Below are positions 7,901 to 55,500 of a stretch of DNA of 64,000 bases, piece after piece. A model generated the notes under the pieces. That model was not told the DNA's origin. It did no database searches and saw only the letters and a program-made list of their open reading frames with translations. The stretch is from Lutjanus erythropterus. Its lineage: Eukaryota; Chordata; Actinopteri; Lutjaniformes; Lutjanidae. Position 1 is the stretch's first letter. Every line of letters begins with the position of its first letter. Made by a program: the position numbers and the translations under genes. Location: NCBI GenBank assembly GCA_020091685.1, contig CM034613.1:17380932-17444931 (forward strand). Reading direction: 5' to 3'.

Positions 7901-10900
7901 AGTCTGCCACAAATCAATTAATGTCCATTCATTCCCTGAGTCAACGCCTACAAACATGCAGGTTGAAACACACAGACGGAGAAGCAATAATTTCCAATTT
8001 CGTTTGACATTTGAAGTTGCACAAAGAACAGTAAGTTGAGGCTTAGTTAGGAGCACATTATGACTCGTTTAACCTTTGAAACTCAAAGTTTAGGACTTGG
8101 GACTTGACTCTGAACTTGCATGTCTCGACTTTGGACTTCAGTGCAAAGACTTCTGATCTTTACCATCAGTGCTCATCAAGATACAAACTGATTTGTTTAA
8201 AATAAAGCAGATGAAACAAAAGCACATGACAGGATGATGATGACGTAGTTTTTAAGGGTCCAGTCTGTTGAATGTATCGTTGGTGTGTTTTATTCTATCA
8301 AAATCAAACAGAAGCGGAGAGTTCTTGTGCTTGAAACCCCTGTAGGCCTATTGATGTTTGGCTGGTCTGCATCTTCATTAAAACTTTTTTTATTACTTTT
8401 AATATAGCTCTTGATGTTTTAAATATAGATGAGAACACATTTTTAAATTTTACTTTTTAATCAGAGAAGCTTAAAATGCCAACAGCACTTTAGAAAATCA
8501 TTCACAAACTCAATAAAAACTACTTTAGCAACAAGCTGCACCTTGTTTAGTTGCATATCAGTACATGAATTCTTAACATATCAAGTTGCTATGTTGTTCT
8601 GGTTTTTCAAGTTTTAAAAATTCCTAATTATGCTTTTGTCTACCTCACCTTGGTTTAGAGGTTAATTATTCACGTCTTTGTTTCACGCCATGCATTGCAT
8701 GAATAAAATTAGCCGAGAAGCTGGTGAAGCTTTTCCAAAACCCTGAAGCGAGACTCTTTATCCTCCTGTGTCATGCCTTCGTTTCACTCACTGCAGGTCA
8801 AACACAGGACTAAATTCAAAATTCTGCTGATCACCTGTGAGACTTTCATAAATCAGACCCCTGGATGTATTCATGAACCTGCTGACCCCTTCCTCCCCAG
8901 GCCGGCCAGAGCTCACTGACTGTTCCCTAATCAAAAACCTAACCGTAGGGTGAAAGAGTTTTGCTGTTTTGGCCCACAGACTGCTGAATAATCTTCCTAA
9001 ACCCTACTGAAACCTGCCAGCATGATGGATGAACTAATCTGTTTGTTGAGGATTGCTCTGGCCACAGCATGATGAGGTCAAATAGGGTATTTTTTGTGTA
9101 AAATTTAAAGTAATTCACATTTCTTGAAAAGTTTTGATCGAAGAGAGTGAAGCGGATCCCCTCACCTTCTCCGAGGCTGTATCGCAGCCGGACGTCCCAC
9201 GCCTGCAGGGCCTCTTTGCTGTCGAAGCCCAGCAGAGCGGCCTGGCTCAGGCAGAGGATGGTGAGGGTGAACGCCACGCCTTCATAACACTGCCCCACTT
9301 CCAGACCGCAGATCTCCTCCAAGGTGACGCTGGCCCTCTCCTTGTTGCCCTGCGCTTTGTCCGACTTGTCTTTGTAAACCAGCAGCACGAGGCAGTCTGG
9401 AGGAGTCAGAGAGCCAGAATGAGACACAGCAAAAGCATAAAAACATCTATTTCTTATGTCTAATAGACTCTGTTCAATGTAAAGGGAAAAAAAAGCTGAG
9501 AAAACTCATAATTTTAAGGCAACTGTCTCCTCTCAATCTTACTCTTATGTTTTGAAATAAGTTTTGCCAACCTAGAAGCTTTTGTTAAGATAATTTACTT
9601 CTCTTTTTCAAAACCTGTCATTATTTGGATGAAATGGTTGCAACTAAAAATATCAACTTATTAACTATTATTCACTTTCATGAAATTAAATGACATTTGC
9701 TATCAAGTTTAAAAACTTAATTTATGCAATTTATCTTTGATATTTTACTTTTCTTCTTAAGAAAGATTAAGAATAAATTCTGTATGTCAAAAGTATTTAA
9801 ACTGAAGTTAAAATTACACTTTTGCATTAGTTCAGATATAACAGTTCCTTAAAAACAGCTGAACACTAGGGCTGCAAAACTTTGAGGATGATTTAAACAG
9901 CTGATTTATTGTTTAGTCTATAAACCAAGATTTCCCAAGGTGACATCTTTAAATTGCTTCTCATGTCCAAACAACAGTCTAAAACTGAAGTACACATCAT
10001 ATACTCTCATTAATGACAAAGAAAAGCAGCAAATCCTCACATTTAAGATGCTGGAACCAGCAAATATTTGACATTTGTGCTCGAAAAATGACTGAACCAA
10101 TTAATCGACTCCCAGAATACTTTGAAGCTAATTTTCTTTCAATTAACTAATCAATTAATCAACCTGTCGTTGCAGCTCTATTGGAAACAGAGTTAAAATC
10201 CATAATTAATTACACTGTCAAACACTAATTAGATGTATTCTGACACACAGTAGCTGTTGTAGTGTCCTCTAGTCTTTTGGCACCTTCAAACAATCAGTGT
10301 CAACTGACCAAACAAGACTCTGTGTGTGCGCGTGTGTGCGTGCGTGTGTGTACCTCTCTCCTTCACACACACACCTCTGAACCCACATAACTGAGGCATG
10401 AGCGCAGACAGCTGTGATAACACTGACATGGAAGATCTGAAGACGAACAGCACTCAACCTCAGTCTAACCTGTGGAGCATGTTAAGCTGCGCAGCACCAG
10501 ACGTGTTTCTGTTGTAACGCAATACAGCCACTTCATTGCTTTGAATCCTCGCATCTTAACCGTAAAATATAAAAAAAGGCCAGAGGTAATTGACAAATGC
10601 CAGGGTTTAGATAACCTTAAACTCCTGCTTAATAAATGTGACAGAATTACAAGCACAAATTCACTAAGAGCACATTCACGGTGCATCTAAAAATACAGCA
10701 GCATTCAGGCGATCAGTCTTTAGCACATGAACTCCAAGGATGGGAACAAATAAGGATCAATAACTTAAGAGTTTGTGGAATCATGTTCATAAATACTTTC
10801 AAAACCCATGGTTGTACATCAGCCTTTATAAACCCAAGAAAAAACTGAGTGCTTAAATTATATCAACAGACAGGTTACATAAAAATGAATGAATGAACAT

Positions 10901-13974: not shown

Positions 13975-30491
<16,517 letters not shown>

Positions 30492-34290: not shown

Positions 34291-34580
34291 TTAGACAACT
34301 GTGGCCTTGTAAAGGTCTGTAGTCGTGCAGTCCTTGCCCTCTGGAGGGTTGCGGCCGTTCTGGGGCATCTGGGCGTTCCTCATCTTGCTCTGGCACTGCC
34401 GCAGCTCAGCGACGTAGCCCTGGAAGCTCAGGCTGAGCTCAGAGTCCTCGCCCTGCGATGTTTCGAGCGTTCCCTCCTCTAGATGCACTCCCTCCACATC
34501 CATCACCTCCTGAACCGGCTGTGCAGCGTCAGCTCTATCCGTGGGTGATTTGGTGTCGGAGCTCGGGTCTGTTCTTCCCT
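34291..34580 (-). CDS. RGS12: RGS12 last exon, long C-terminal tail
   Basis: Enters in phase 1 at [10 protein letters not shown], passes an acidic stretch and [13 protein letters not shown], and ends L-Y-K-A-T-V-V then TAA. The acceptor follows CTCACGCACAG. The final A-T-V-V corresponds to the A-T-F-V end I recall for the long human form, a class I PDZ ligand. Confidence 0.88.
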
Positions 34581-37500
34581 CTGTGCGTGAGAGAAAAGAA
34601 AGACATGGAAGATTAAAGATGAACTGATGGATTGTGGAAAGGTCAAGATGTCTATTTGAACATGAGGGTGGTTGAGAAAAATGGCAAACAGGCAAACACT
34701 TTAAAGCCAAAGTCATTAATTTTCCACTTGGGGGCAGCAGAAAAAAAAAGAAAAGACAACACTGACATATTATCACCTTATAACCAAACAACAGTCTCAC
34801 TCACAGCTCCTCAAATAGCTTGGTCAGTGGCCCTATGCTTCAATCTATCTAGCATCAGTTTTGCATGTGCAGGGCTCTACAGTCAAATTAGCAATAACAA
34901 ATATGCAATGTCGAGGTGGACTTTCAAAATAAAAGGTGCAAAAGTTAGGTTTAGGAAAAGATCATAACTTAGGTTAAAATAAGTAACTCTGTTAAGTAAA
35001 TTTATGTAGGCCTAAGCTACATAACATAACTTACTTAAATTCAGATATGTGACTTATGTGACTCACATTACGTTACATTATGTTATATTACATTATTTAC
35101 TACATCACATAACAAACAGATATCAATATTGACTTTTGTTTCCACATGGGAACCAAACCCTGTTGTTTGTGTGAAAGTGTTACGTAACTTAAAGGAAATC
35201 AACATTAACTATTAGTTTCACACAGCACATAAACCTCTGTCTCCTGGGTGTGTTTATTTGACCCATCCATCCACCACTCCTCCTCCACACATGGATTTTC
35301 TCACTCTTTACACTACACCGCCTGACTTCGACAGCGCATCAAAACACTTTTTCATTTGGACTTGTGTTTGTGTCCACCTGACAAATCTAAATGCATTCTG
35401 TTTTGGTATCCACCAATTCCTGAGGAAAATATCTTTCTTTATCTGTCTTTTTAGCTGTTAGATTCTCCATCAAGTTCACCAGTTAGTTACTAACTGCATC
35501 CGGTTGCTGCTAAAATTATAAAAAAGCAGAATTGGATTATCATTTTCTTTGGGTTTTGTCACTGCTATTTTACAAATGATTGTCAAAAATCCATTTTTAA
35601 ATCACAGTGACTAACCAGACAAAAACTCAATCATACTTTTGCTTAATCTCTGTGCATCTTTGACTCATTTGGAGTTGCAGACTGAACATTGATGTCAGAT
35701 TACACTGCATCATGGCCAGATGCTTTGCGTGGCTTTGAGAGATTTCAGTGGAACAAAGAAAGAACTGGAAACTTTGTCATCCATCGCATGGGTGCACATA
35801 AACCTAATATGTTTGTGTAATCTCACAATGGTATAGTTGTGTAATCTGGACAGCTGCTGTCAAGACAAACTTCATGACATAACTGCTTCAGCTCAAACTT
35901 GCTTAACTCGCTTGCCAAAATCGTGGGAGAGAACTGAATGAAATTGGATCAGGATGAAATACATGAATTAATTGGCTTGTTGTCACATGTGGTGTATTTC
36001 AACATTACCGCTTGAACTTTATTTCAAATGATTCAGTGCTGCATTAGCTCATGAAATGGTCCAGGACGCAAATTAATAAACTTTTAAATCACGTTTGGCG
36101 TGTACTAAAGGGGCAGAAAATCAAAGTTTCCGGGTTGCCGGTTGCAGTTCCGATGGCCGATAAACTCTCCACTTCTCATGTGAACCCTGTGGCCCCGCAG
36201 ACTCTAAACACAGAGGCCACAGTGAGTCAAACACAGCACTTCAACACATAGGCTCTCCTAACTCCGCTGACTGTGATTCACTGCTGTTCGGTTCAGATGT
36301 AAACACAGCCTGTGAGATCCAACAGCTGACCTTACACAGACCCCTCGAGCAACACGACAGCGGTACAACTTCAACCGCCAAGGTGAACACGAAAACACTT
36401 CAAGCACTCCTCAGGAACCGTCAAGATCTTGTCTGAAGTTCAAGGACAAGATGCTGACTTCAGTTTGGCAATAAAGGTATGACATTGAGTCAATTTAAAT
36501 TATAATTGATGCTACATGAACACAGATCTCAGTCACAGGGTTTTCCGCAGGATGTGATGTATTGAAGCTGGTATGCAGAGCGGCAAGATGACGCAGTTTG
36601 ATGAATGTGAATGTGATTAATTAGAACAATTTGTACTTTTTAAAGCCAGGAATGTATTCATCTATCCATTTAGGAAAATTCCTAATGCTATTTTCCTGTG
36701 AAATACTAATTAATTTTACCTCCTCTGGCTTAAAAATGTATTAAAAGAAGCAATATGTGAAGGTTTGTCTCCAGAGCTCATAACTCATAAAAATATTCAC
36801 CCTTCAACAAGAAGTTGCAAGTCACAAAGTGGGGCTGCTGCTTCTTTTCATTATTGATTATTCTTGATCAATCGTTCAGTCCATAAAATAGAGAATAGAA
36901 GTAGAACTTGAAATTTACCAGAAAGTTAGTAGAACCTAAGGCAATATCTTCACTTGTCTTATCTTGTCTTGTCCAACCAACCGTCCAAAACCAAGGGATG
37001 TTCATTTGTGCTTAGAAAATGACTTGATCGGTTATCAAACGATAAGTCAACATGTTTTGGAGCCTTCAGAGCACAAGCATAAAGGATTTTTTTTTTTATC
37101 TTGCAATTTTGCACACAGTATCAGGTCGAAATGTTGGGAATCAAATCGATATGTCAAGAATAAAGCTGAACTTTCAGTGTTAGATCCAGGCATTTTATTT
37201 GCATTTTGAGAATAAAGTCAAAATGTCAAGAAACTTGCCTTTCAACACGAGTATTTCAACTTTATTCTTGACATTTTGACATTAATGCAACATTTTAAAA
37301 AATCTTCTTCCTCTTATTATTTCTTACTATGCTTGGCACCAACACTGAACGTTCTATTTTATTCTCAAAATGAAAATGAGGAGAGAAAATCTTTCCTCTA
37401 GTCTTTCCAGTTTATAATACTCCACTGGTCTATGCCCACTTTTTAGTTTAGTGAGTGGGTCAGCCTATCCCAGCATGCACTGGCCAAAGAGCGGGGAAAC

Positions 37501-40500
37501 ACCCTTGACAGGTTGCCAATGTGTCACAGGGAAACCCAAGATGTTGAGAGTCCTTCTGCTAATGAGCCACCAGCTTTTGTGCAAAAACCCTTAGAATTTT
37601 CTTAAATAAACGGTTTAACATCTTGACAAGATAATTTTGAAGAAATCAGATCATGAACAAATCTAACCTTTATATTTCCAAACTGAAGAGCAGAGGGGAG
37701 ACACTCTTTTCACACCTGAGCAGCACTCCATGCAGACTGTTTACTGTCTATTGATCATTGTTTCTGTACCTCTCGCCTTACTAGCAAGTCATCATCTGCC
37801 CACACAACTTTTTTTTCAAATGTTTGCAGTGTTAACACATCCGTGCCTCCTGCGGTGAGTCTCTTCCACAGCCGTGTCTGCAGCCGGGAGCCGAGACGGA
37901 CCAGTCAGGCTGGAGCGGACCCAGCTACAGTCCTCACCGAGGCCGACTGCCAAAGATCCCCGTCCAGTCCTCCTCCGACCGCCAGATGGATGATAAGGCT
38001 GGCCCGGGTCAACGGCTGCCAGCTCTGAGAGCTGCCAGGAGTTGTGGAAGAAAGAGAAACAGGCCTGAAGGCAAACTGAGCCATGTGGTCCCTCAGGTGT
38101 AACTGCTGAGTCATTACACAGCACTTTCAGCAGATAACCCACCATCATTTACTCCCAGGAATCTTTTAATCTTCTCCACATGGGTCTTAACTTTCCCTCT
38201 GAATTTAAACCCCAGACACTGACCTGACTGCAGAGAGGAAAAGCAACACAATCTCAACCTGCTGAATAATCATTTCTACAATTTCTGGCTTATTTTTCAG
38301 TCCTCTTTATAAAGATGCACTGAACTAAAAGCTGCATTCATTTAGTTCATATCAGTCATATGAGCAGAGTTACACTGTGTGATGTCGCCCCCTAGTGGAC
38401 GTCCTAATCCTGACCGACCAAGCCTGCCAGAGGTGATTACAGCCATGATTAAGAAATGATTGTGGTTAACACAGCAGCAGTTCTCCTCTGGATACAGACC
38501 AGAACCCCTCTGGTTTTGCTTTTAACGGTCTAATCAGGGGCTTATTTACTGCTGATTTGCCAAGTAAATGCAGTAAACTACCCGTGCAGGGCCAGAAATA
38601 CTCTTGGTACTAATCGACTGTGCCTGAGAGCCACTGCTTTAGATGGTAAATCTTATACTGATGTCAGGGCGTATTGGTTTTTAGTGCAAGTTAAATTCTA
38701 TCCTCAATAAAAACTGTGGCGCATGCATTAACTTCACTGTGTCCTATAAACATGTATAGTTTGGAGACTTTGCAAACAAGTCCTCAAATAGTTTTATTTA
38801 TTTTATTCCCATCACTTCATGTGTAGAAGAGTATGCTGCTAGACTTTATCCTCCTCCTTACTGCAGTACTTTATTATTTATGGCAGTGGCGTCTAAGTTT
38901 AGAATCAAACTGAATTGAGCAACATGTTGATCCACCTCAGCAGCAATTATATCTATTCTTTTGGAACAGCAGAGGGCGTCAGTTTAACAGTAATACACAG
39001 TACAACTGGAGGAGGATGTCTGCAAAGACTGGAATCAAGCAGACCGACACTATAAAAGATAATTACTGCTGAAACATCAGTACTTTGTTTGGACTGATGA
39101 GCTCTGACTTATTCTGTGGGTGTGTCTTTAAAACTGAGTTGCACCAACAAGGACCTCTTCAAGGACCAAATCATTTAACTTTAACTTTATGTTGTTTTTA
39201 AACTGCTTAACATTAAGAAAGATCCAATTTAAACCCTTCTTTAAATCCCTACTCTAAACCTAGATTAAAATTAATTCTTTTGCACCAAAACTTTAAACTC
39301 CCATTTAAAAGGTGGTCAAGTATTAATTTTAAACTTACACTTCAGGAGGTTTAACTTTAAAAATGGCTGCCTTTTTGAGATAGATTGAGCAAAATAATTC
39401 TCTGCTGAACCACCTTGAGGAGGCTAACGAGGCTAAACAACTTTTTAGCTAGCTAGCGAACACTAAACATCATTGTACTTTGTAGCTAGCAAACAAAATC
39501 ATAGGATTTTTTGTTAGCTAGCAAACAACATTTTTTATTTAGTTTTTAGCTAGCAAACAAGATAACTTTTTTATTAGCTTGCAAGACAGCTTTTTAAACA
39601 ACAGGGTTGTTTTTTTGTTTTTTTGCTAGCTCACACACAATACAATGTTTTGCTAAGGAACACAGAGCAAACTTAGTCCAAACAGCTCTCAGATTTATTT
39701 TTTATTTACTTATGTTGCTTAGCGGTGAACAAACATCTCCATGTTGATTAAACTATTTTATTTCCATTCACATCAGTAAACTTAGATTTACTAAACTAGG
39801 ATTAATTTTGAATTGTGTAGCAGAGCTCTGCTTAATTTTAAATCTGGATTTGCTCATTTTAAACTTTTGCTGTACTCTGAATAGAACTCATGTTAGATTG
39901 AATTAGTCTTTGTTTGTGAGACCATTATTAAGTCAGAACGTGTGACTTTCCACCCAAATTCAAATGTACCAACTTCATAAAGTCTCCAAAAAGTGGTAAA
40001 GCGGAGGCGTTCTTGCAGATGCCTCACAGATTCAGCCGTTCCCAGGTGGCAAACGGTGTCAAAAAATATGGGTATAACGAATCATAGCTACATTTCTATT
40101 TTAGCTAGTGGGAGAAAGAGAGAGGCAGAGAGAGAGATGGATGCAAACCAGTAGTGACAGTTTCTATCTGTAGCTCAGTCAACTCGTGGATAAGGTTACC
40201 ATGGCGCCCGGTGGTGGGAAGAATCAGGCTGATGCACTTAGCAACCAGAAAAGAGGAGCGGGAGCCTGTGGAGGAGCTGAAAGGCTTCGATTCCTCCTCA
40301 TCATCTTGTGTACATATCACCTTACATTAAAGCCCGGCTATTACTACGAGGCAGCGAGGTCGGGGTGAACATGTTTGCGCCCGTTCCATAAAGTGCTTTG
40401 AAGTGCATGATACACATCAGCTTTGTTGTTGGAAAACATGTTGAGCATGATTATCTTCTCTTTCTGCAGAGTTCAGAGGGTTTCAGGGAAGGTTTCTTGG

Positions 40501-43500
40501 GATTTTCTTTGAAGCCAAGAATCAAAATGTGTTGTTTCTAATTGGATATCTGAACACAGAGAGCTTTTGGTCTCAGTTTATACATTTCTGACAACTCTGA
40601 AAGTGTCAAAGCCACTGTAGAAAACACCATCACCATCATGAATCAATTCACCACTTGATTGTTTACCTTAAAGGGATAGTTCGGATTATTTAAAGTGGGG
40701 CTTATTGATAGTCAGTGTATTATCTACAGTAGACATGTTTTAAGTTTGGAGAAGCAGAGGGGAGTACCAGCATGGAAGCCTGTGGACAGCAACAAAAGGT
40801 ATTTCATACACTTAAAAATGTCCACCTAAAAAAAAGGCAGTATCAGTTTGTGTGTACACTGTATTTAGAATATTTTCACTGCTTTACCTTGCCATCGGAC
40901 AGCCGTTTCCAATGAGAAACCACCATTATACAATCCAAATATCACCCTTTCCAAACCAACCAAACTCCATAGGTGAAAGAAGTCATTTCACCTTGCAGGA
41001 AAAAGTAGTTGCTGGTCTACCGCTGCCTTTATCAGTTAGTTTTTATGTGTTATTGTGTGAGTTCTGAGCTAACCTTTTAAAACAGAGAAGTTACACAATA
41101 GCACAATTAAATTAACCGACTGGGGCAGTTGTAGATCAGCAACTCCGGTGCTCTGAGGTAGAATTGCTGATTTCACCTATGGAGTTTGGTGCGTTTGGAG
41201 AGAGCGATATTAGGGTTATGTAACTGCAGTTTCCCATCGAAGCAGGTCGTCGGATGGCAAAGTAAAGCAGTGAAAATACAGTGCACACATGAACTGATAC
41301 AATTTTTTTTAGGTGGATCTTTTTTTTAAGTAGCTAAGAGACCTGGTGCTCCTCTCTGCTTCTCCAAACTGGGGATCTACCATCTACTGTAGGTAATACA
41401 CAGACTATCAACGCATAATCTCACTTCAAATAATCCAAACTATCCCTTTAAAATCACAGAAACATACACACTGGAGGAGAGGGAATAAGGACAAGGACGG
41501 GAACCAGAAAATGAAATCAATCTGCAGGAGGTGATGATGATCTTAAATTCCACACACAACGAACTAAGCTTTGAAAACACACAAGTTTAACAGAAGGCAA
41601 GACTCAAAAGCGCCACAACGCCACGCCGAAGCTGCACACAACAGAGCGGTGACCCCCCACCAAAGAAACAACACACCGAGCAGGTAGACCAAGCAACGTT
41701 TAACAAGAACAACACACAGCGAGCAGCAGCAGCGACACCCTGACACGAGCGCACACACAGAAAAAAGTACACAAAGGAGTGGGAGCAGCTGATGAGAGGA
41801 GGAAGCCACAAGACAAAATGAGACAGCGCTAAGGGAGAACAGGAGAAGAAGAAGAAGGCATGCGGAGGCGGAGGAGGAGGAGGAGGAGGAGAGGTGGTGG
41901 TGGTGGAGGAGGGGGAGAGAAAACTGAGCTCACATAACGTGTAAAAAGACAGACGAGAGTGATTTCCAATTCTAACATTTATTAGATCGACTCAATCACA
42001 GGTACAGAGTTTATTGGCAGTGATTATCTACAACAGGCATCTAGAGAGGGGGGGTGAATGACCCAGATAAAGAATGACAGGCAATTCAACAATGTCACCA
42101 GCAGCTAAGGAGCACTTGTCCTCCAATGACTAATTATTTTTCTACTATTGCTCATATTGCTACAGCACAGAGCTGACACCGTTTAATGACTCACCGGATT
42201 TAGAGAGTTGCGTAAGAAAAAAAAAAAACAACAAAAAAGGAGCTTTTTGACATTGACACTGTTGAATTGCTCTCAGCTAAAGGTGGTGGGATGGAGAGGG
42301 GTACAGCATTTGTTTTGTAATGACTGTTTAGCATTCACAGATCCGCTGACACTCCAAAACAATTTCACGGGTCTGGTGTGCTACGATGTTTTCTAATTGT
42401 ACATAATGAGCCCGTAATGCCAGGAAACACAGCTGCTAATCTCATCACTTTCAATCGTTCACTTGTTCTGAATTATAATCTTCAGCACAACATTCACTCA
42501 CTACAGTACTGTCATTATGCATATAATATTAAAGGGTAACTCAAATATTTTTTTTTAACCTGGATTCCCGTGTTTTTGTGTCTAAATCACAAATGGGGGC
42601 AACAGTTTTTTAAATTGGTCCAAGCGTCAGAAGCACAACATCAAAGTACTTCCACTGAAAGAGGCTGTTTTTGTCTCTGAAAGGTTCAGATCGTTATTTT
42701 AAGTCTAATTACATTTTGGAAAGAATCCCTACAAAGGTGGACCTTTTATTAAAGAGTAAGATCCGTCATTACGTCAGCAAGGCAAGTTATTTTATCATCA
42801 TTATTTTCATTCAAACGTGACAGAAACAAAATAAAACTTAGCAAAAATGTTTTGGCTTTGTCTAAAAAAAACCTTAATTTACAGCATTAGATGTGAAAAT
42901 ATTAGATGATGAACAAGCGGGAGGTCAGACATCAGAGAAACAGTGAGTAGAACCAGAGTTTTTTCACATCTGCCTCGGTGCATAACGGTTTCATTTCGAC
43001 TGTTGATTGTTGGAGCAGTGGAAAGACGAGCCAAAACGTTTTTGGTGAGTTTTATTTTGCTTCTGTCTCTTGTGAATGAAGATAACGATGTTAAAATTAC
43101 AGTTTTGCAAATGAAGACTGGTTAGTTTGGCGAGAGCAATAAAACAGCTGTTTCTGGTTAAACAAAACATATCTTACTCTTAAAAATCTGTGTAAAGCAA
43201 CAATAAATGTGCTGAGTTTGTCACACCACTCAACCAAATCTGAATGATTGTAGTATATAAAATTAGGTCTCAGCCATTAAAAAATGAGACAGTTTCAGCA
43301 ACTGTTCTTACATATACAATGTGTTTAGAGGAAAAAGAGATTTCACTTTACATAGACTTTTAAAAAAATCTCTGTAGAGATCCTTTCCATAATATTGTCA
43401 GACACTTACTATAATAATCTGAGCCTGTCAGTGGCAAAAACATGCACTTTTAATGAATGTACTTTGACGTGCAGTTACCCAGAGGGATCCTCCTGCTGGT

Positions 43501-46500
43501 TGCAACGTTCACCCTCAGTACTGGACCCATTCCAAACATTGTTGCCCCCATCAGTCACTTAGACACCAAAATAGGAAAACAGGGTCCAGATTTAAAAACA
43601 AAGTTTACCCTTTAATATACATAAGCTTTAAAATCAATTACATCACCATTCTCATGCACCATAAACTACAAAATAAACTAAATATTTCACTGGAATAAAC
43701 CATTCCCAGTCATATAACCCGGCAATTTGTGGCAGCGTGGGAAGTGACATCCATCCAAGTAAACGTTACTCACTGAACAAAATATACACATCACTATTTA
43801 CATTTACATGCTTTTCTAAGTTGAATAAAACAAATCAGTTTAAATGATTGGCAAACTGAGGAAGAGTCAATATCAATTTGTCATTAAAGTGCATCAGAGT
43901 CAGTGTTGAGGGAGTTTGATCATGAAGGTGGTCGGGTTCAGAGCGCACACATGCACATACGACACACACGCAAACACACGAGCACTGGTGCGTTACACTG
44001 TAGAAATACCTGAGCTGGACTTTCCCTCTCCACCCGCGTCTTGAGACTTGGAGCAGGGTGGCGGTGGGGTGAAGTTGGCTTCAGGCAGGCTGCTCTCGAA
44101 GGACGGCATGGAGGGCGGCGATGGAGGCAGCAGGGTGCTGTTGGGGCTGTTGATGTCGCCCTCCCCCACCAGGGTCAGGTCGGTGTGGACGTCCTCCTCC
44201 ACGGTGCGGAGGCTCGGCCGGATGTCTGAGGACCGGGAGATTGGGGACAGGTGGGTGCCGAAAGTGGGATGGCGGGGAGGGGGCAACAGGCACCGCCTGG
44301 TCCCGGAGTGTCCATTGGCACTGGAGCTGAGGGAGGAGTCCAGACTCTCCGAGCGAAGGCTGGAGGTGAGGGCGCCCCGTGGGGAGATGCCGTTCTCCCG
44401 GGTCTGTTTCAGGGAGTCAGGGGTGGAGCAGGCCAGGTCGGGTGGAGTCAGGCGCAGGAAGTCAGGCAGCACCAGGTCGTCTTTGTTCAGGAGTCCACGC
44501 TGGTCGTTAGCTCGGGTGCTCTGCGCCCGGCTCAGCAGCTCAAAGAATTCTGCAAAACAGATCAAACAAGGTCCCTCACTTAAAAGCACAATATGTCATT
44601 TCTACTGCTACGGGTCTCTCACATACAAACAATAACAAAGATGTAGTTTAATGACATTATTTCCCAGCTTTGTTAAATACTCAGTTCTGATTGGCCAACT
44701 CCTGCATTCTAAGACCAGACTGGTCTTGTTGTTATAAGACAGTTTAATGCAGAAATGTTACATATTACAGCTTTAACCCTCCAAACAGGTGAGCACCTGG
44801 AAGAAAAGGATTAGTTGGATTTAACATGCAGCGTAGCAGCCTCACACCTGACAGAGAATATAACCCTCCAGAGGTGCCAAAGATGGAAAGTTAGTCCTGA
44901 GGCAAAGCGAAGCTAGGAAATCCACCAACAAGTCAAAAAAAGAGAGAGAGAAAGAGAGAGAGAGAAGGAAAAGGGGGATTTACCTTCAGCTTCATCTATA
45001 TTAATCTTTTTCTGTTTTCTCTTTTCCCCTGGGAGTGCTGAGTCTGGTCCACTTGCTCTCACAGAAAAGTCCTTTGGTGTTGACCTCTCATCTCCCTGCA
45101 GATGCAACAATAACAATGCACTCTGTTAGGAGATGGAGGGATGGGGGAGGAGGAGGAGGAGAAGCAGGAGGAGGAGGGTGGGGGTCGTATGGGGGGGAGG
45201 CCAAGCACGAGCTGCCAAGCACCCGACTGAGCAGAGTGTCCAGATCATGTAAAGATGAGCCCGGTCCATCTGGTGGCTCTGTGTCTTTACTGACCTTGCT
45301 AGCATCTAGACCGAGTGCTATCTGCCTACATATGGTGCAGTAACTCGAGCATGGAGGAACATGAGCGAGTGAGTCAGCGACAGGCAGTGTTAGGGCAGAG
45401 AATACCAAAAAAAAAAAAAAAAAAATCAGAAAATACACCGATTTAAAGCTCATCAAAGCTGGTAAGTGTTAATAAAGATTAATACGGGCCACTATTAAAT
45501 TACACCAAATGTTGCAGAAGCAGCGCAGCAATAGGAAAGGACAAAACACCACATCTGGACAGTTAGGCAACGTGATGTGTGAGATAAAGATGTCACGAAT
45601 ACTTACTGTAGCAGAGAAGCTCCTGGTTGGAGGGTGGCCTTTTAAGGAGGAAGACTTTGATTTGTCTGAGGGGAAAGAGAGAGACGTGTGTGAACAAATC
45701 ATCAGGTTGACAAACTGATGAGGAGACTGTGAGACGGAGAGGAGAGGTGAGGACACTTAAGACATGAGAGATGTGCTGCAAAACTTGAATATATTAATCA
45801 ATGGAATAAGTGATGTGGAAGTGATTTACAATTGACAGATGCATTTCTGGAAACTGGTGGAAGGAAGATTCTAGTGGGGAAAAAAAAACTTCTCCAATCC
45901 AAATAAAATGTAAAATAAAATAACTGACAGTTTGGAATATTTAGGATGGTTTCCACCAACAAAGATTCATTCTGAAATCTGATTGAACCTGTTTTTAAAC
46001 CTCAGTTTAGTTTTTAATCTAAACCTAGATTAAATTCAGTTCTGTTGCACCAAACTTTTAAAGTCCAATTTCAATCTTATGCTGAAGAAGGTTTATCAAC
46101 CTTTTTGAGATGGATTGAACAAAATAATGAATCATGAAGAAACTTAAGGGGAAAAACTCAAACCAACTGAGGTTCATGATGCGTCTCTTCTGTCTTTCAC
46201 TCCAGTTAATCCATTAAAACAGTCTGCGTGTCGTCTGTTTTTTAATCATCTATTATTCGCTCATATTGCTCCTTTAATTGGCCAACAGGTTTTTTCTCAA
46301 AGGAGAAGTTAGACCTTCTCTTATGAGTCATCATCATAAACAGACAAACTAGACATATATTAATAATATTCTTTGTTACTGTTTAAGGTAGCTAGAAAAA
46401 ATGTAACGCGCTGTTAAGGGATACAGCACTTTAATTTATGATTATTATTCTTCTAATTTATTGTTATTCGGGTAAGGAAGCATCTCCATATTGACTTATC

Positions 46501-49500
46501 TTTTGGTTTACATCAATTAACTTAGATTTACTAAAGTGAGACTAGTTTTTAATTGTGCAACAGAGCTCTGCTTAAATTTAAATCTGAATTTAGTCAATTT
46601 AACCCCAGTTTTTTAGACTCAGTCTTAGATTAAATTAATCTTCGTTGGTGCAAACCAGTCTTAATGTTATATATTATGTTACAGTGTGTTAGATGGTGTT
46701 ACCTTTGACTGAAGCCGGGTCCGCTCGCTCTAACACGACCCGCAGACCGTCCAAACTCGATATGGGGGCGCCCAGGTCCAGCGGCTCAGTTTCTCCACTC
46801 TAAAACACAATTTCACATTCGTTAGCATCTTCACCTGTTGTTCAGAAGTTGAATATGTTACAATTCTTCCTTAGTATATGGCTCATATTTGAGTTCAACA
46901 GCCTTTGCTTAATTCATAAACCATCTTTCAGCTCTGGTCTACTGTATATTACAGTTATAATGCCTGGACTGGCCACAGGACTAAAATAAATCATCTGGCA
47001 GAGGTTTAGGGGAGGAGTAAAGAGTCGGAATATTTGAGGGGTGTCGTCATTCTTAATTATAGCCCTGGTGCTCCATCTTCCGAGGCCGGGCTGAGTCACA
47101 GCGCTAACCACCGTGTAGAGATGGAAAAGGATGCGGTCGCTTCCCTCCCCTAACCATGATACTCCACCCTGTGGCACTGTCACACACTGCACAGGCTGCT
47201 CTCAGGACACACAGGAGATTCAAAAACATTAAGGAAGGCACTGTGGCCACCGGGCACGACTTACTATTTTGGCCACGAGATCGCTGAGGTGGAGGCCATA
47301 TTTGGCCACCACGGGACGCAGGACCTCGGTGACAGGTTTGGTAGGTTTGGCTTTCAACCCCACGGAGCGGTTAATAGGTACCAGGTCCAACCTAGGAGCA
47401 AATTACACAAGTGAGTAGTCAGCATGGACAGAAAAGTGTAGACAGAAAATGTGATATTCAGATGAAAAATTCACATGATAATCGATACCTGAACAAGGTC
47501 CGCTTCTCCAGCCTCAAGTCTCGAGAGCTCAGGGTCATGCAGTCTTGGTCCAACACCAAAGGCTGTGAGGACAAAAGCATGAAATCACACATTAGCAACA
47601 CATAAAGGGAAGATCCTTTATTCTCCCTAAGTGGGGCTGCACTGAATGTCATTTGATTTACATTTGATGCTTTTATTGAGGTTTTCGAATGAAGCTTACA
47701 TAAAATATGACGTCGCTGTACTAAAAAAAAAAAATCCATTAACAAAATCCTCAAATTGAATAAAGTGATTCATTGGATCAAATGAGTCAGTCGTTTTTTA
47801 TTAAAGCAACTTTCTTTTAATGAAAATCACTCATCAGTTTAATCAGAATAAATGTAATTTTTAGTGCTGTTAGCATTCCTCCCTCTGTGTGCATCAAGCT
47901 GGAGAACAAACAGTTTTTTGACCACAGTGAAAATTTTTGTTTTTTAAAAGGCTAAATGTCAAACTTTTGAACTGGTGCTGAATATCTTGTTAGATAAAAA
48001 CATGCTGTGAATTTTGGAACTGATTACATCTTTTTCTTTACAACACTCTGGAGTTGTGGGTAAGGTTATTAGAGTTAACTAAAACTATGACATTTCAGTT
48101 AATCTTCTCACAAAACTAACTGAAATAAAATAAAAAATATAAAGAAGTCACAAGCAATTCTATGTAGCCAAAGTAATCCACTAATTGTTTCAGTCACTTT
48201 TCAAGCAAAAATGTCATTAGCTGGTTCGAGCTCCAGAGTCTTTGAGTTTTGTACTATTTGTTGGACAAAAGAGGCAATCTGAAGACATGACTGAGAAACG
48301 ATGAGGAGAATTTTTTGGCAGATAGGCAGATGAATTGATAATGAAAATAATTGTTAGTTGCAGCTCTATATATTAGTGTAGACTAATCTTTATGCAACTG
48401 TGCAGAAATACTGGGTTAAACCAGAATGAGTAGACATGCAAGAAACATGCGAACAGAAAAGCTGCTGCATTCGAATGTTGATTCAGAATTTGAAGGCCAA
48501 TGTTATGAACAAAGCAACTACAAGCTGTAGCATCTTTATACAGTACAACAATGACTCCTCACAGAATAAAGCCTGTTAAAATGCAAAGTGTAGTCGCGCT
48601 GTGTTTACCAAGGTTTGATTTATAATAAACACAGGCTTGAGTCAATTCATTCAAGAGGTGCTTGCAGCAGTGTTCTGCATCCTGACGTATTAGCAGCAGA
48701 TGTTCTGAGCATTTGTCAGTAATTTGTTTGGCGCTAGCGTCTGCCTCTCCCTCACCTTCTCCCCTCCCACCAGGAAGAGGTCAACGGCAGCGATGTTGAT
48801 GCTGATGTTCTGACAGAGGTCTTGCAGGACTTCCCGTATGGAGGCACCGGGCCGGAGAGTGATGGAAGAGCAGGAGCCATCGGGAAGCATGACGCTGCAG
48901 TGTTTGGGGGAGCGTTCCCACACTCCAACTGAGTGCCGATTATCGGCCTGTGGATGCGAAAAAGATTCAAAGCTTAATTTAACAAGAGCGACTGAATTAT
49001 GGCTCCAAGCGTCACGGATACATAGGGTCAGTTCATTTGCTATCCGTAATCGAAAAATGAGTGGGCTGACAAGTAAGAAATAAAAAAATAAACAACTCCA
49101 GCCTATTATGATGGCTTCACCAGACACTGGGCTCTGTGTTGCCATGGTGATCTGTCCAGAGGAATCTTACCTCAATCTTGCCAGCAGAGCAGGAAGTGGC
49201 CATCTCCAGACTGGTACCGGACGACAAGGAGCCCTGGGACTCCCTCCGCCCATTACTGCCCCAGTAGTCTACACAGAAGCAGCACAGAGGAAGATGAATT
49301 CAGGCAGATAAGAGACGTTTCACATCAAATGACACTCGCAATATCCAACACAGAGGCAGCATTGAGCTATAACGTGACTAATAGCAATGTCTTTGATTTA
49401 TGATTGTAGTTTGGCGCCACAAAATCTTGGCAAGCGAAAAGGTGTTTGTCATCAAACAAGATAATTTGTGAATAAACAGGCGGTGTTTTGTTACATTAAA

Positions 49501-52500
49501 GTGCAGCTACATTCAGTGTGAGACATTTATGTTAAAACAACAGTGTGAAATGCACACCAGGTTCAGTTTAGTATCACATTATCTGTAACTATCTCACTCA
49601 TACTTGTATTATCACCTCTGCTAGTGTATTATTGTATATATACTATTTATATATATATGTTTTTTATTCTTCTTAAAAGTTTTTTATAATGTTCAGTTAA
49701 GAATTTCTCTTTATCTTGGTCTTATACACAAAGAATCCTTTCAAGTTAGTTAAACAGATGCAGCAAACTTATAACATTAGCTAACGTTACATCACAGTCT
49801 AGTTTATATCTATAGCTTAAATACTTTAATGTGTAATAAAATCAACAATAAATAAATAACTCCTGAGAGGAAGATGTCCTCTTTATTATGAATGACTTCT
49901 GTCTAATCTAAAGTAATTCTTGACAGTTTTCTTGGATTTCTTTGTGTAATTAGTGATGTGTTTTTTGGCCCGAACAGACGAGTTGTAATTTTGAATGGAG
50001 GCGATAACAGGTATAACGAGCACCAGTACAAGCAAACAAACGGTATCCATGGAAACGTTAAATCTTCACAGCTGTAAAATCTCTTTCGATGCTGTAAGTG
50101 CAGCATTCAGGGTTTTCCTCAACTAAGGAAGACTTCTGAGGGATTCTGTACCCGAGTAGATTTCCAGGCAAGAAGAAAATAAGCCGTAAGTGTCACACAT
50201 AAAGAGGAAACTAACAGCGTTTTGTGCAAGTGGCCCCTGGCTCTTTGTGAATGATACTTGAGTGAGTTGCAACAAGTATGTTTTTGCCAGTGTGTGTAAT
50301 ACTTTGATCACTGTGGGGCAGCTGTGTTTCTACATGCCTCCCCCGCGTGTAGCTCATGGAGCTCTGGAGCTGGCAGCGATTTGGTGTCTTGTTCAAGGAC
50401 ACATCAGCACTTTGGAAGTTTGTGTGTTGCAAAAGCTTTAAACAGTCGGTATAACAGAAGGAGGCGGGTCTGTTTATCAATTACTCACCGAGGTTAATGT
50501 CTCCTATGTCCTTCTTCTTCGGGCCCTTTCCAAAGCTCCTGTTGCGGGACCATGAGAAAAAGATGCCGCGTTTCTTGTCGGCGCTCTCGTCCCTGCTGTC
50601 TTCATTCAGCGACCTCCCTGACCTCTGCTTTCTGCCGTCCTGTTGGGCGGGACAGACACAACAATTAACAAACAAGGTCAAGAATGTCACACTTCCACGA
50701 AAAAAGTCAATTTTTTGCATTCATAAAGCAACAGCTGCACCTTTTTCGGAGTGGAAAGTGTTGAGCGGTCAGAGCTGGCGCTGTGTTTGGAAGGTGCGGG
50801 ACTGCAGGGAATCTGGTAGGGGTCCGGCAAGGGTCGGCCATCCACCTCAGCGCGCATACACTCTTGGTAAAGAGAGGACTTGAGGAATCGTGAATAACTG
50901 TCGAACTTCATCAGGTTGAAGATCTGTAGACGTGGAGGGAAATGACAGAGGAGATGAAGGGGTTAGTGAAAGTGATGGAGAGGACAGCGAGTCACGTCGG
51001 GTCAAAAATGAGGGAGTGAGGAGGAGAAAATGAAACACAGACAGAAGAAACTACCAGTGTTAACATATGGTTACAGCTTATGTTATGACAGGTGTCTTAA
51101 CAGTTAACATTTTATCATGGGCAGGCTGAAAATATACAGATCTCTGACTGCATGTCTATGTGTCTGTGTGTACAGTATGTGCTAGATTCTCTGTGGGTGT
51201 ATGCCAGTTTGTGTTTATCTCTCTGGTAAAGGCTCAGAGCCCTTTCGTAAACAAACCCAGATGGCCACTAAAAAAACCCAATATGCTTGTGCAAAGTGAC
51301 TAAAGGCTAGATGAGAGCAAACCCCCCGACTGCACACAGAATCCCTCCTGCTTACAATGCTGTCAGGAAAAACGTCTTGATCTTCAGCGCTGAAACAGCT
51401 GAATAATTTAAATTAGTGGAAGTCTAAATTGAGGTCACCGCTGCTGCTGCTGTGTTGCTCGTACCTGTAGCTGCTGCGTCTTGAACATGTCGGGCCGCGG
51501 GGACGTGAGGACGTCATCAGCCAGCTGGGCCTGGCTGTCGATGTTCACCGGCATGGTGGCCTTGCTGGACAGGAAGCTGTTGTAGATCTCTCCGGCTTTC
51601 TGAGACAGCTGCAGGAGAAGAGGTTTGATAATCCAAAATATCAAGAACAACTATAGAAAATCACATCACTAATTGTCTTCTTATCTACTCTCAACAGCCT
51701 TCAAACTGTAATTTAAGGCTTCATGTACATACTGTAATATGAAGCATCTAAAAAGTGTTAGTGCTATTTAAGATTTAAAATAATATCATTTAAATTTCTA
51801 TACACTTTCCTGATTTTGAGGTTTAATCTGGCATGATAATGCTCAGATGCTGCACAAAACAAACGTTATTAAATCAGTATATGTGTTTTTAGTGTTGAGA
51901 TTTCCCCCAGAGGGAAACAAAAAGCTTAAGCTTCACTAGCTGAAACTTACAAAGACTGGACAAACCGCACATAAAAATTGTTTTTCACCAACTTGCAAAG
52001 ACTTTTTAGTCTTTGACAGTCAGGAAGGGTCATAAACCTCTGAACAACTGGTGTTCTGACAGTAGACAACCACACAAATCCTGTTTATGTGCAGCGCAAT
52101 TTGCAAAGAAAAAAAGGAGAAAAAATGTATATAAAGGTCAAGTCTTATGAAATTGTGCGCTCAGAATGCTATTGCATGTGCACAAGATACAGTTCATTCC
52201 CACCTTTTGATTAATTTGTGCATTCAAGGTACAATATGTTCCCACCTTTTGATTATTTTGTGTGCACGAGATATAATTAATTCCTACCTTTTAATTATTG
52301 TGTGCAGGAGATGCAATTCGTTCCCACCTTCTAATTATTCTGTTTGCATGAACTACCATTCGTTCACACCTTTTGATTATTTTGTTTGCATGAGATACAA
52401 TTCGTTCACACATTTTGATTCATTTGTGAATCAAAAGGTGGGAACAAATTGTATCTTGTCTGCACGCAGTAGCATTCTGAGGGTTCGATGTAGCAAAATG

Positions 52501-55500
52501 TGGCCTTGATATATATATTTTCTTCTATGGCCACTCTGGGGCTCCGCAGATAAGACGAAAAAAAAAAGTACAGAGTTTGGTTGAGATCCTTAATGAAGAG
52601 GTGTGTAGGAATGTATATCCTACAGATGGAATCAGGTGAGTGAAAACTGAATCTGAAGACTTAAGATTATAACCTTCTTCTTCTTCAGAAATCTTTACAT
52701 ACTTCCACACATTGTACGATTTTATTTCATTTATTTACTTATTTCCTCCCCTTTAAGCAAATATCTGCCAAATCAGTGAATCACAGTAGAAGAAACCACC
52801 AAACAAAAGCTGTGACTGTATCTTTAGCTTCATACTGTGGCCTTACCTGCTTTTTATCAGTTGCAGGGACATGACTGAAGTATTCACAGGCCTGCCAGAA
52901 CAAGATATTCTCCTCACTGAATTCTTTCTTGAGAAATTCCTGTGGAGACAGACAGAGCAAGAGTTTCTATATCATCTCAAACCGGTGATCATTTTATCCT
53001 CTTTCTGGTGCCGTTGTTGTTGTTGAGACCAGTAGTGAGGAAAAGAAATTATTGGGTGTAATGTTGTGAACAAGATTGGTGTAAGTGTAGGCGCAGGATA
53101 GTGTAGGCGAGAGCAGCTCTGATCAGCGTGGAGGGAAGGTGAGGAGCGAGGTGGTTCTGGGACGCCAGAACTTAATGTTTGAGCCTTCTGAAGGTGTTGT
53201 GGGCTAAATACAAACACACATCTTTTATGTGGGAGGGATGGTAACATAAATGAGACGCCTGGACTCACAAAGGTTGGACATTAAAAACTACGGGCCATAC
53301 TACAGAACTTAAACTGTTTCTTAATGATTACGGTCAGTCAATGTTCCTATCCTAACTTAAGACGGGAAAAGTGTATTACACAAGCATCCTAACTTGCCCA
53401 GATCTTAAAAAAGGTCGCCTAATTTAAGGATAACCACTAAGCCATCGTAAATTTCACTTTTACACCAGCTAGCGCTAGATAAGTTATGCCTGCTAATTTA
53501 TTGCTTTTACACAGTGGAATAAATTAGATCCTAACCCTCATTGTCTTGGTTACCAAACAGTTAGGTTAGAAAGTTTCTGTAATTTGGGCCCTGTTTCTGA
53601 ACTTGAACTTATTCCAAATTGATGCAAACCTGGGATTTGTTAAGAAATGTGCTGACAAAAAGCATGAACAAAAAATGTGACTGAAGGCAATTCAATGCAT
53701 GAAGGAAGGTGGTCTAACATGACAAAGCATTTACTTCAGCATTGTATGAGAACAAAGCGTTTTTGATCCCCCCAACTGCAATCATAATGGACAATCAACT
53801 AATTACAAGCACCAAGCTCAGGAATGCACAAGTGTAAAAACTGTAGAGAATATTTTTTTAATGGTTTTTCTTCCGACATCATTTTGTTTTCCTTTCCTGC
53901 ATGAATCAAAACAAGGGTTCGATAAGAAACAAAATCAATAAGCAGAATCAATAAAAGCCAAACAGCACACATCCCTCACTGCTCACCCACTTAGTTTTAC
54001 TCTTAAAAACTTAAATCTGAACCACCAAGAGACTTCACGTTTACTTAACTTCATTTTTCGTGAAGTCTGGCAGGATTCAATCAATTTGGGAAACTTTTCT
54101 TACCGAGAAGTAGCGCACACCCACTGGATCCTGGAGGAGACGCTCGAAGCAGGCGGCCCAGCTGGCCACGCGCTGCTCCGGGACGCTTCGATGGCTGCCT
54201 GCTCCTGGAAGACTGCCATTACTGTTCAGGCTGCTCTGGCTGCAGCATCCCTGCAACTGGACTCCGCTATAGTCTGCAACACGGAAGAGAGAAACACAAA
54301 GGTTAGAGCAGGGCTCCGATGTTGAAGGGTAATTCCAGCCAGAGGGAACGTTAGAGCCACTCTTCTGTGTGCCCTCTCAAACCTTAAAATATTCTTGTGG
54401 ATTTTAACATTTTTGAGTTTTTCCTTCCTTTTGACATATCTGAGAAGTCAAACTAAGTGCTGTAATTTAATTCATGAGGGAGAACAGAGGTTTTTTAAGG
54501 AATTTTCTAAAAAACCTCAAAGAAACCATTAACAAAACATTTTTTTGTATTAGTACACATCTTCAAAAGGACCTCACAAAAAACTGGCATGTCTATGGTT
54601 TTTGGTGAAACAAGAGAGCAAGCAAAACAGTAAATAGCACATTTCAAAAGGGAAAGTTTGGATTTGGTGATGTGGGGCTTTATGAGGTTGTTATTGATAG
54701 TCAGTGTTTCAGCTACAGTAGATGGAGGTCGAAGAGGTCGAAGCAGAATATTGTAACCCCCTTCACGCTGCCATCAGACAGCCTTTTCTGACAGAAACCA
54801 CTGTTATATAAGCCAACTATCACTTTCTCCAAACCAACCAAACTCCAAAGGGAAAATCAATACTTTTACCTCACAGAGCACAGAAGATGTTGGTTTACCA
54901 CTGCTTTCATCTGTTACTTTGTTTGTGTAATTATGTGTCTTTGGTGTTTTTTTTAAAAGGTTAGTTTGGATTCACCAAAGTCACACAATAACACAAACTC
55001 CTATGGAGTTTGGTGGGTTTGGAGAGAGTGATATTTGGCTTAGGGTTGGGCGATTGGACGAACATATCGGCGATGGGCTGAATCCATCACTGATTGCTTT
55101 TTTTGGCCGATTTTTAGGGCAATGTTTGTCATTTTATTTTACTAATGTAATAGTCTGCAGAGTGACAGCCTCTGCTCTGCACCGCGCTCTCATCCACTGG
55201 CGCAGTACACACCCACTCAGCCGACCATGAGTGCTCTGAGCTGGGTGACAAGTGAGAGGAAAACAGCCTGCAGAGTGAGACTCTTTACACTCTTTTCATG
55301 CGGTGAATTAAGGATTTTTTTAAAACCAAAACAGAGTTTGTGATTGTTGGAAGAGTGGACAGAATAACAAAGACGGTTTTGGTGAGTTTTACATGTTTTT
55401 CTGTCTTGTTTTCCGAGGAGTTAATGAGCCAATTAAGCTCGTCTTCGTTTGGTGAAAGAGAGAAACTTGAATTCAGAAGGTGTATGCCAATCGCCGATGG

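Follow-up and report, generated by a model that had tools for sequence, protein, structure and literature searches.

How does one exon come to offer a gene two different C-terminal ends, each with the look of a docking signal, and has selection kept both? The question is raised by a 64,000-nucleotide stretch of Lutjanus erythropterus DNA (GenBank contig CM034613.1, positions 17,380,932 to 17,444,931 of the forward strand; this whole stretch is referred to as the window, and position 1 is its first letter). Its minus strand carries a gene that, judged by its predicted domains, is rgs12, and the GoLoco exon of this gene can be read to two alternative ends. With a slightly better than even chance of being right, this exon can be thought of as a donor-controlled composite exon, both ends of which would be selected coding sequence and most likely PDZ ligands. 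The two ends are built from the following elements (a slash marks an exon-intron boundary).

44010..44549, minus strand, GoLoco exon common to both forms (Pfam and sequence; 540 bases), the coding part of which is extended to 43992 by read-through
44004..44012, minus strand, splice donor CAG/GTATTT (first intron base 44009), consensus except at +4 and +5
43995..44009, minus strand, read-through codons, which together with exon base 44010 encode G-I-S-T-V
43992..43994, minus strand, stop TAA of the read-through form, from sequence
34581..44009, minus strand, intron of the long form, 9,429 bases, from sequence
34291..34580, minus strand, terminal distal exon (its coding bases with the stop), specifying a 96-residue tail that ends K-A-T-V-V
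43611..43616, minus strand, ATTAAA, which could serve the read-through form as polyadenylation signal (density of such hexamers no higher than chance)

Translated through the donor, the frame ends S-S-S-G-I-S-T-V, 5 residues past the exon; joined to the last exon, whose acceptor reads ...CTCACGCACAG/AGGG, it ends K-A-T-V-V. The original prediction had placed a donor at 44009 and named both frames and both ends, and the sequence bears all of this out. The 91 residues of tail that it took to be exchanged are correct as a net difference (the tails have 96 and 5 residues), not as the length of a tail. In G-I-S-T-V, Ser at -2 and Val at 0 constitute a class I PDZ-ligand pattern.

A second copy of the gene repeats this arrangement. 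When the exon protein is searched against the whole genome (937.6 Mb), two sites come back at E <=0.001: the window and C3:34494306-34494833, the latter with 53% identity over residues 1-144. Read-through of this paralogue ends ...S-S-G-T-S-P-V, five codons past a CAG/GT donor, at a TGA stop; its intron of 8,349 bases leads to a good in-phase acceptor, TCTTCCTCAG/GTAAAG, and its distal exon ends K-A-T-F-V. Between the distal exons there is a related segment of 38 residues, 13 of them identical (E 5e-5 in a single comparison), and their ends are alike. (The tails have a 24-residue stretch in common, at 34372-34443 of the window and at C3:34485534-34485605, both on the minus strand and reading SELDRKWEGVALELRCRGSRMRSA in the second; no such stretch is known from the human tail.) The class I C-terminal pattern [S/T]-x-hydrophobic is found at all four ends: I-S-T-V and A-T-V-V in the window, T-S-P-V and A-T-F-V in the paralogue. 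In both genes, to go by splice sites and phase, a shared exon would either end early or be joined to a distal exon with the end (A/S)-T-x-(L/V).

Taken by itself, the read-through motif is unremarkable and is weak evidence, since 4-5% of arbitrary ends fit it. Among read-through frames from AGGT sites in the window (three phases; reads shorter than 3 residues dropped and uncounted), [ST]-x-[VIL] ends are found in 22 of 517 on the plus strand and 25 of 518 on the minus strand, and [ST]-x-V ends in 5 and 12 of these, respectively; at all stops after four open codons, [ST]-x-[VIL] makes up 4.2% (n = 2697) and 2.9% (n = 2735), respectively. The motif rises above chance because the paralogue repeats the ending. 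With the real donor and the intron's own composition, [ST]-x-[VILF] ends arise in 3.2-4.8%. A neutral simulation held the donor bases fixed and filled in all other bases by intron dinucleotide frequency, with 200,000 draws per donor; five-residue tails with this motif arise in 0.31% and 0.33% for the two donors, and the frequencies for five-residue [ST]-x-V tails are 0.07% and 0.08%. The test is a fair one, within the bounds of one relative and few bases, because the motif was named before the paralogue came to light.

The bases that encode the tail can be compared directly. Including the stop, the intronic tails (GTATTTCTACAGTGTAA versus GTACTTCCCCCGTGTGA) are identical, ungapped, at 12 of 17 positions; from intron +7 onward the count is 7 of 11 (p about 0.012 at 27% background identity). 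Past the stop, ungapped identity is 12/43, 22/100 and 56/200 over widening stretches. When the window intron with 200 exon bases is compared with the paralogue's exon end plus the next 20 kb downstream (blastn, word size 7, one strand), one solid match is found, inside the exon, together with three intron scraps at E 0.16 to 0.57. By both comparisons the introns are without visible similarity, yet tail length, S(-2) and V(0) are kept. Of the 5 differences in the 17 bases, one is silent in a Ser codon (TCT/TCC) and one exchanges stop for stop (TAA/TGA). Conservation of the last residues, which the original prediction had singled out as informative, extends in the paralogue, the one copy compared, to the five-codon tail, S(-2), V(0) and the distal A-T-F-V; the letters I-S-T-V are not kept as such, only G-x-S-x-V.

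The donor of the window gene is weak but plausible. Scored with a donor matrix, it reaches 2.1 bits against 8.9 for CAG/GTAAGT and ranks in the best 3.3% of 4003 minus-strand GTs, but of six further donors placed by eye in the gene, five outscore it; on the same matrix the donor of the paralogue, CAG/GTACTT, scores 1.9 bits. The codon that follows Gly would bar the consensus A at intron +4 in both fish genes (and in human, where it is a Thr codon, ACN), so that tail coding and a weak donor would be coupled. The polyadenylation signal of the read-through form had been expected near 43611, and an ATTAAA starting at 43616 matches that place. It lies 376 bases past the stop; the corresponding distances in the paralogue are 149 and 170 bases. 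As evidence for the read-through form it has nonetheless been rejected, such hexamers being frequent in the intron: AATAAA or ATTAAA occurs 22 times in the 9,429 bases, about once per 430 bases, and one within about 380 bases is therefore expected by chance.

What this suggests operationally is that the GoLoco exon would serve as a composite terminal exon, with splicing at a weak internal donor and cleavage within the intron as rival outcomes. Use of the donor would yield the long tail and the end K-A-T-V-V; if the donor is ignored and cleavage occurs inside the intron, the protein would end five codons on, in G-I-S-T-V. Both ends would have been coding sequence under selection since before the gene copies split, and a choice of donor would alter the PDZ docking partner of RGS12.

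Human RGS12 provides an outside comparison. Its long form has 1,447 residues and ends A-T-F-V, much as the fish distal ends A-T-V-V and A-T-F-V do; its short form has 1,376 residues and ends G-T-S-R-F, a tail of five codons beyond what the two forms have in common, which is also the length of the fish short tails. Alternative 3' ends of human RGS12 are thus already known, reportedly since a 1998 description by Snow and colleagues in which one of them carries a PDZ docking site. The place of the short end can be checked against the Pfam family RGS12_usC, by scoring the human region with its last five residues swapped. G-T-S-R-F scores 197.5 bits, covering profile positions 1-145 of 146, and is the top of 13 five-residue ends tried, by gaps of a few bits at most. 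The others score as follows: G-T-S-R-V 196.6, G-A-S-R-F and G-T-S-A-F 196.4 each, G-T-A-R-F 196.3, G-T-S-R-D 196.1, A-T-S-R-F 195.8, G-T-S-T-V 195.5, G-I-S-T-V 195.0, G-T-S-P-V and the spliced-in G-S-G-T-H 194.3 each, A-T-S-T-V 193.9 and D-E-W-K-E 191.7 bits; the long form scores 193.2 and no tail at all 190.7. That RGS12_usC ends where the human short form ends supports an old origin of the short end. Conservation is gauged here from a single paralogue, a single Pfam profile and the human ends.

On the side of the putative receptor, the N-terminal PDZ domain of the window gene lies beyond the window, in the minus-strand open frame C23:17463698-17465773 (Pfam PDZ, 55 bits), and its best PDB match is RGS12 2KV8. 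G-Y-G-F and the His at the class I position are present in the PDZ exons of both rgs12 copies; the alignment to 2KV8 covers the window gene's domain, and that of the paralogue is judged on its sequence. The RGS12 PDZ domain prefers (A/S)-T-x-(L/V), according to PMC11546610, and the long-form ends A-T-V-V and A-T-F-V conform to this preference. Both ends would most likely act as C-terminal PDZ ligands, in different senses: the distal one would fit the protein's own PDZ preference, the proximal x-S-x-V the class I pattern generally.

Several points weigh against the reading of two selected, PDZ-binding ends. I-S-T-V and T-S-P-V miss the preference of RGS12's own PDZ domain, having S rather than T at -2. 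The human short end has F and not V at position 0, in which it differs from both fish copies, and the 1998 abstract is said to have given the docking site to the other human form only. The profile speaks for where the protein ends and does not favor a PDZ motif, and the fish tails score about as well as the spliced-in G-S-G-T-H. Seventeen bases, finally, are little sequence, and the relative is a single one.

In a rival account, the short isoform is real and conserved and its last five residues are not for PDZ binding; an early end might, for example, drop the distal tail together with its ligand. We consider this rather unlikely. The five-codon length that the two fish genes share with human is in line with it, as are the poorer quality of human T-S-R-F as a PDZ ligand and the lack, in the Pfam profile, of special preference for a final V. 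Dropping a tail needs a stop only, yet S(-2) and V(0) persist, the Ser codon having changed silently, and the motif would seldom arise under the neutral model. The weakness that the two donors share (CAG/GTATTT at 2.1 and CAG/GTACTT at 1.9 bits), together with a conserved block directly behind both, might instead point to a conserved RNA element in the intronic bases past the donor, which would control a weak donor and yield the shared peptide as a by-product. This is an improbable explanation: the 17 bases differ at 5 positions, of which one is a silent change and one is stop-for-stop, and similarity drops to background past the stop, as under coding constraint. That read-through is never used and the PDZ-like ends arose by chance is more improbable still; 4-5% of arbitrary read-through ends do fit [ST]-x-[VIL], but the ending recurs in a long-diverged copy at the same codon count and falls where the Pfam family stops.

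To return to the composite exon with two selected, PDZ-ligand-like ends: as x-S-x-V misses the preference of RGS12's own domain, the short form may favor other PDZ proteins. This leads to a more specific proposal, which we hold tentatively and which may well be wrong. It is that of a PDZ-ligand switch predating the split of the fish copies, perhaps of bony-vertebrate age, in which the long end would self-dock or pair, the short G-x-S-x-hydrophobic end would recruit other scaffolds, and the weak donor would decide between them.

The assignment of the gene to rgs12 follows from its domain content. The translation of exon 44549-44010 matches GoLoco (E 3.8e-8) and RGS12_usC (E 5.3e-13; 49.9 bits, cut-off 28) in Pfam, an upstream minus-strand frame matches RGS12_us1 (45.5 bits, cut-off 30), and the order on the minus strand is RGS, then the Ras-binding domain (RBD), then GoLoco:

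50687..52966, minus strand, span in which pieces of the RGS domain lie in three open frames (52781-52966, 51435-51650, 50687-50962)
48756..48902, minus strand, Raf-like Ras-binding domain exon of rgs12 (Pfam RBD, E 1.1e-15)
44488..44549, minus strand, GoLoco motif (Pfam PF02188)

The RGS pieces score 29.7, 24.3 and 20.5 bits with a cut-off of 23.9, so that the piece at 50687-50962 falls below it; the same frame is also the RGS12_us1 match. Open frame 47229-47402, picked by eye as the second of RGS12's two tandem RBDs, has no RBD match in Pfam, and its sole match is to a ubiquitin-like model (E 0.077, below its cut-off). Within the window, Rfam yields no match at gathering scores. A GoLoco scan of the genome gives 21 matches, including the two RGS12 sites; an unusually dense cluster of eight GoLoco matches in 3 kb, on one strand, is located at C19:11889447-11892399. 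Scans of viral and prokaryote contig collections with the GoLoco exon protein yield no relative among 11 and 149 pattern matches, as is expected of collections of that kind.

The surroundings of the two copies bear on their age. A putatively DOK7-like exon is present downstream of rgs12 at both loci (window 8939-9505, minus strand, and near C3:34479771), with 32 of 56 positions identical (57%); the window exon has no Pfam match. Because rgs12 is paired with this exon at both, an old segmental duplication appears to have produced the two loci, which would fit the teleost genome duplication. Downstream of rgs12, trypsin-like and fibronectin type I exons (window 15902-24807, minus strand) are presumably hgfac, which adjoins RGS12 in human, and upstream a Myb/SANT-like exon (C23:17472592-17473101, minus strand) is presumably msantd1, also a human neighbor of RGS12.

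Comparable arrangements are known elsewhere. RGS14, a paralogue of RGS12, is likewise a GoLoco protein with a C-terminal class I PDZ ligand; as described in PMC10987488, it ends in D-S-A-L in humans, other primates and sheep, and this form binds PDZ2 of NHERF1 in cells. The presence or absence of the RGS14 ligand is due to a stop-codon difference between species, whereas in RGS12 it would be a matter of donor choice within one gene. In SynGAP, splicing selects among C-terminal motifs (PMC9064290), as is proposed here for RGS12, although the gene and the splice pattern are different ones. The short RGS12 end was not found described as a PDZ ligand in the literature covered, which includes the accessible parts of PMC6691989, PMC11546610, PMC10987488, PMC7459111 and PMC12733212 and leaves most subscription papers outside the search; PMC12017852, checked for terms on isoforms, splicing, docking and zebrafish, contains none of them. 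What appears to be new is that the short end, too, looks like conserved coding sequence of PDZ-ligand-like form in two fish genes.

If both ends are used, the short form would be more than a truncation, and one splice choice would set the docking of an RGS protein that ends Gi signalling and serves as a scaffold for Ras-MAPK. The proposed switch of ends offers a simple and testable reason for the existence of two 3' ends of RGS12.

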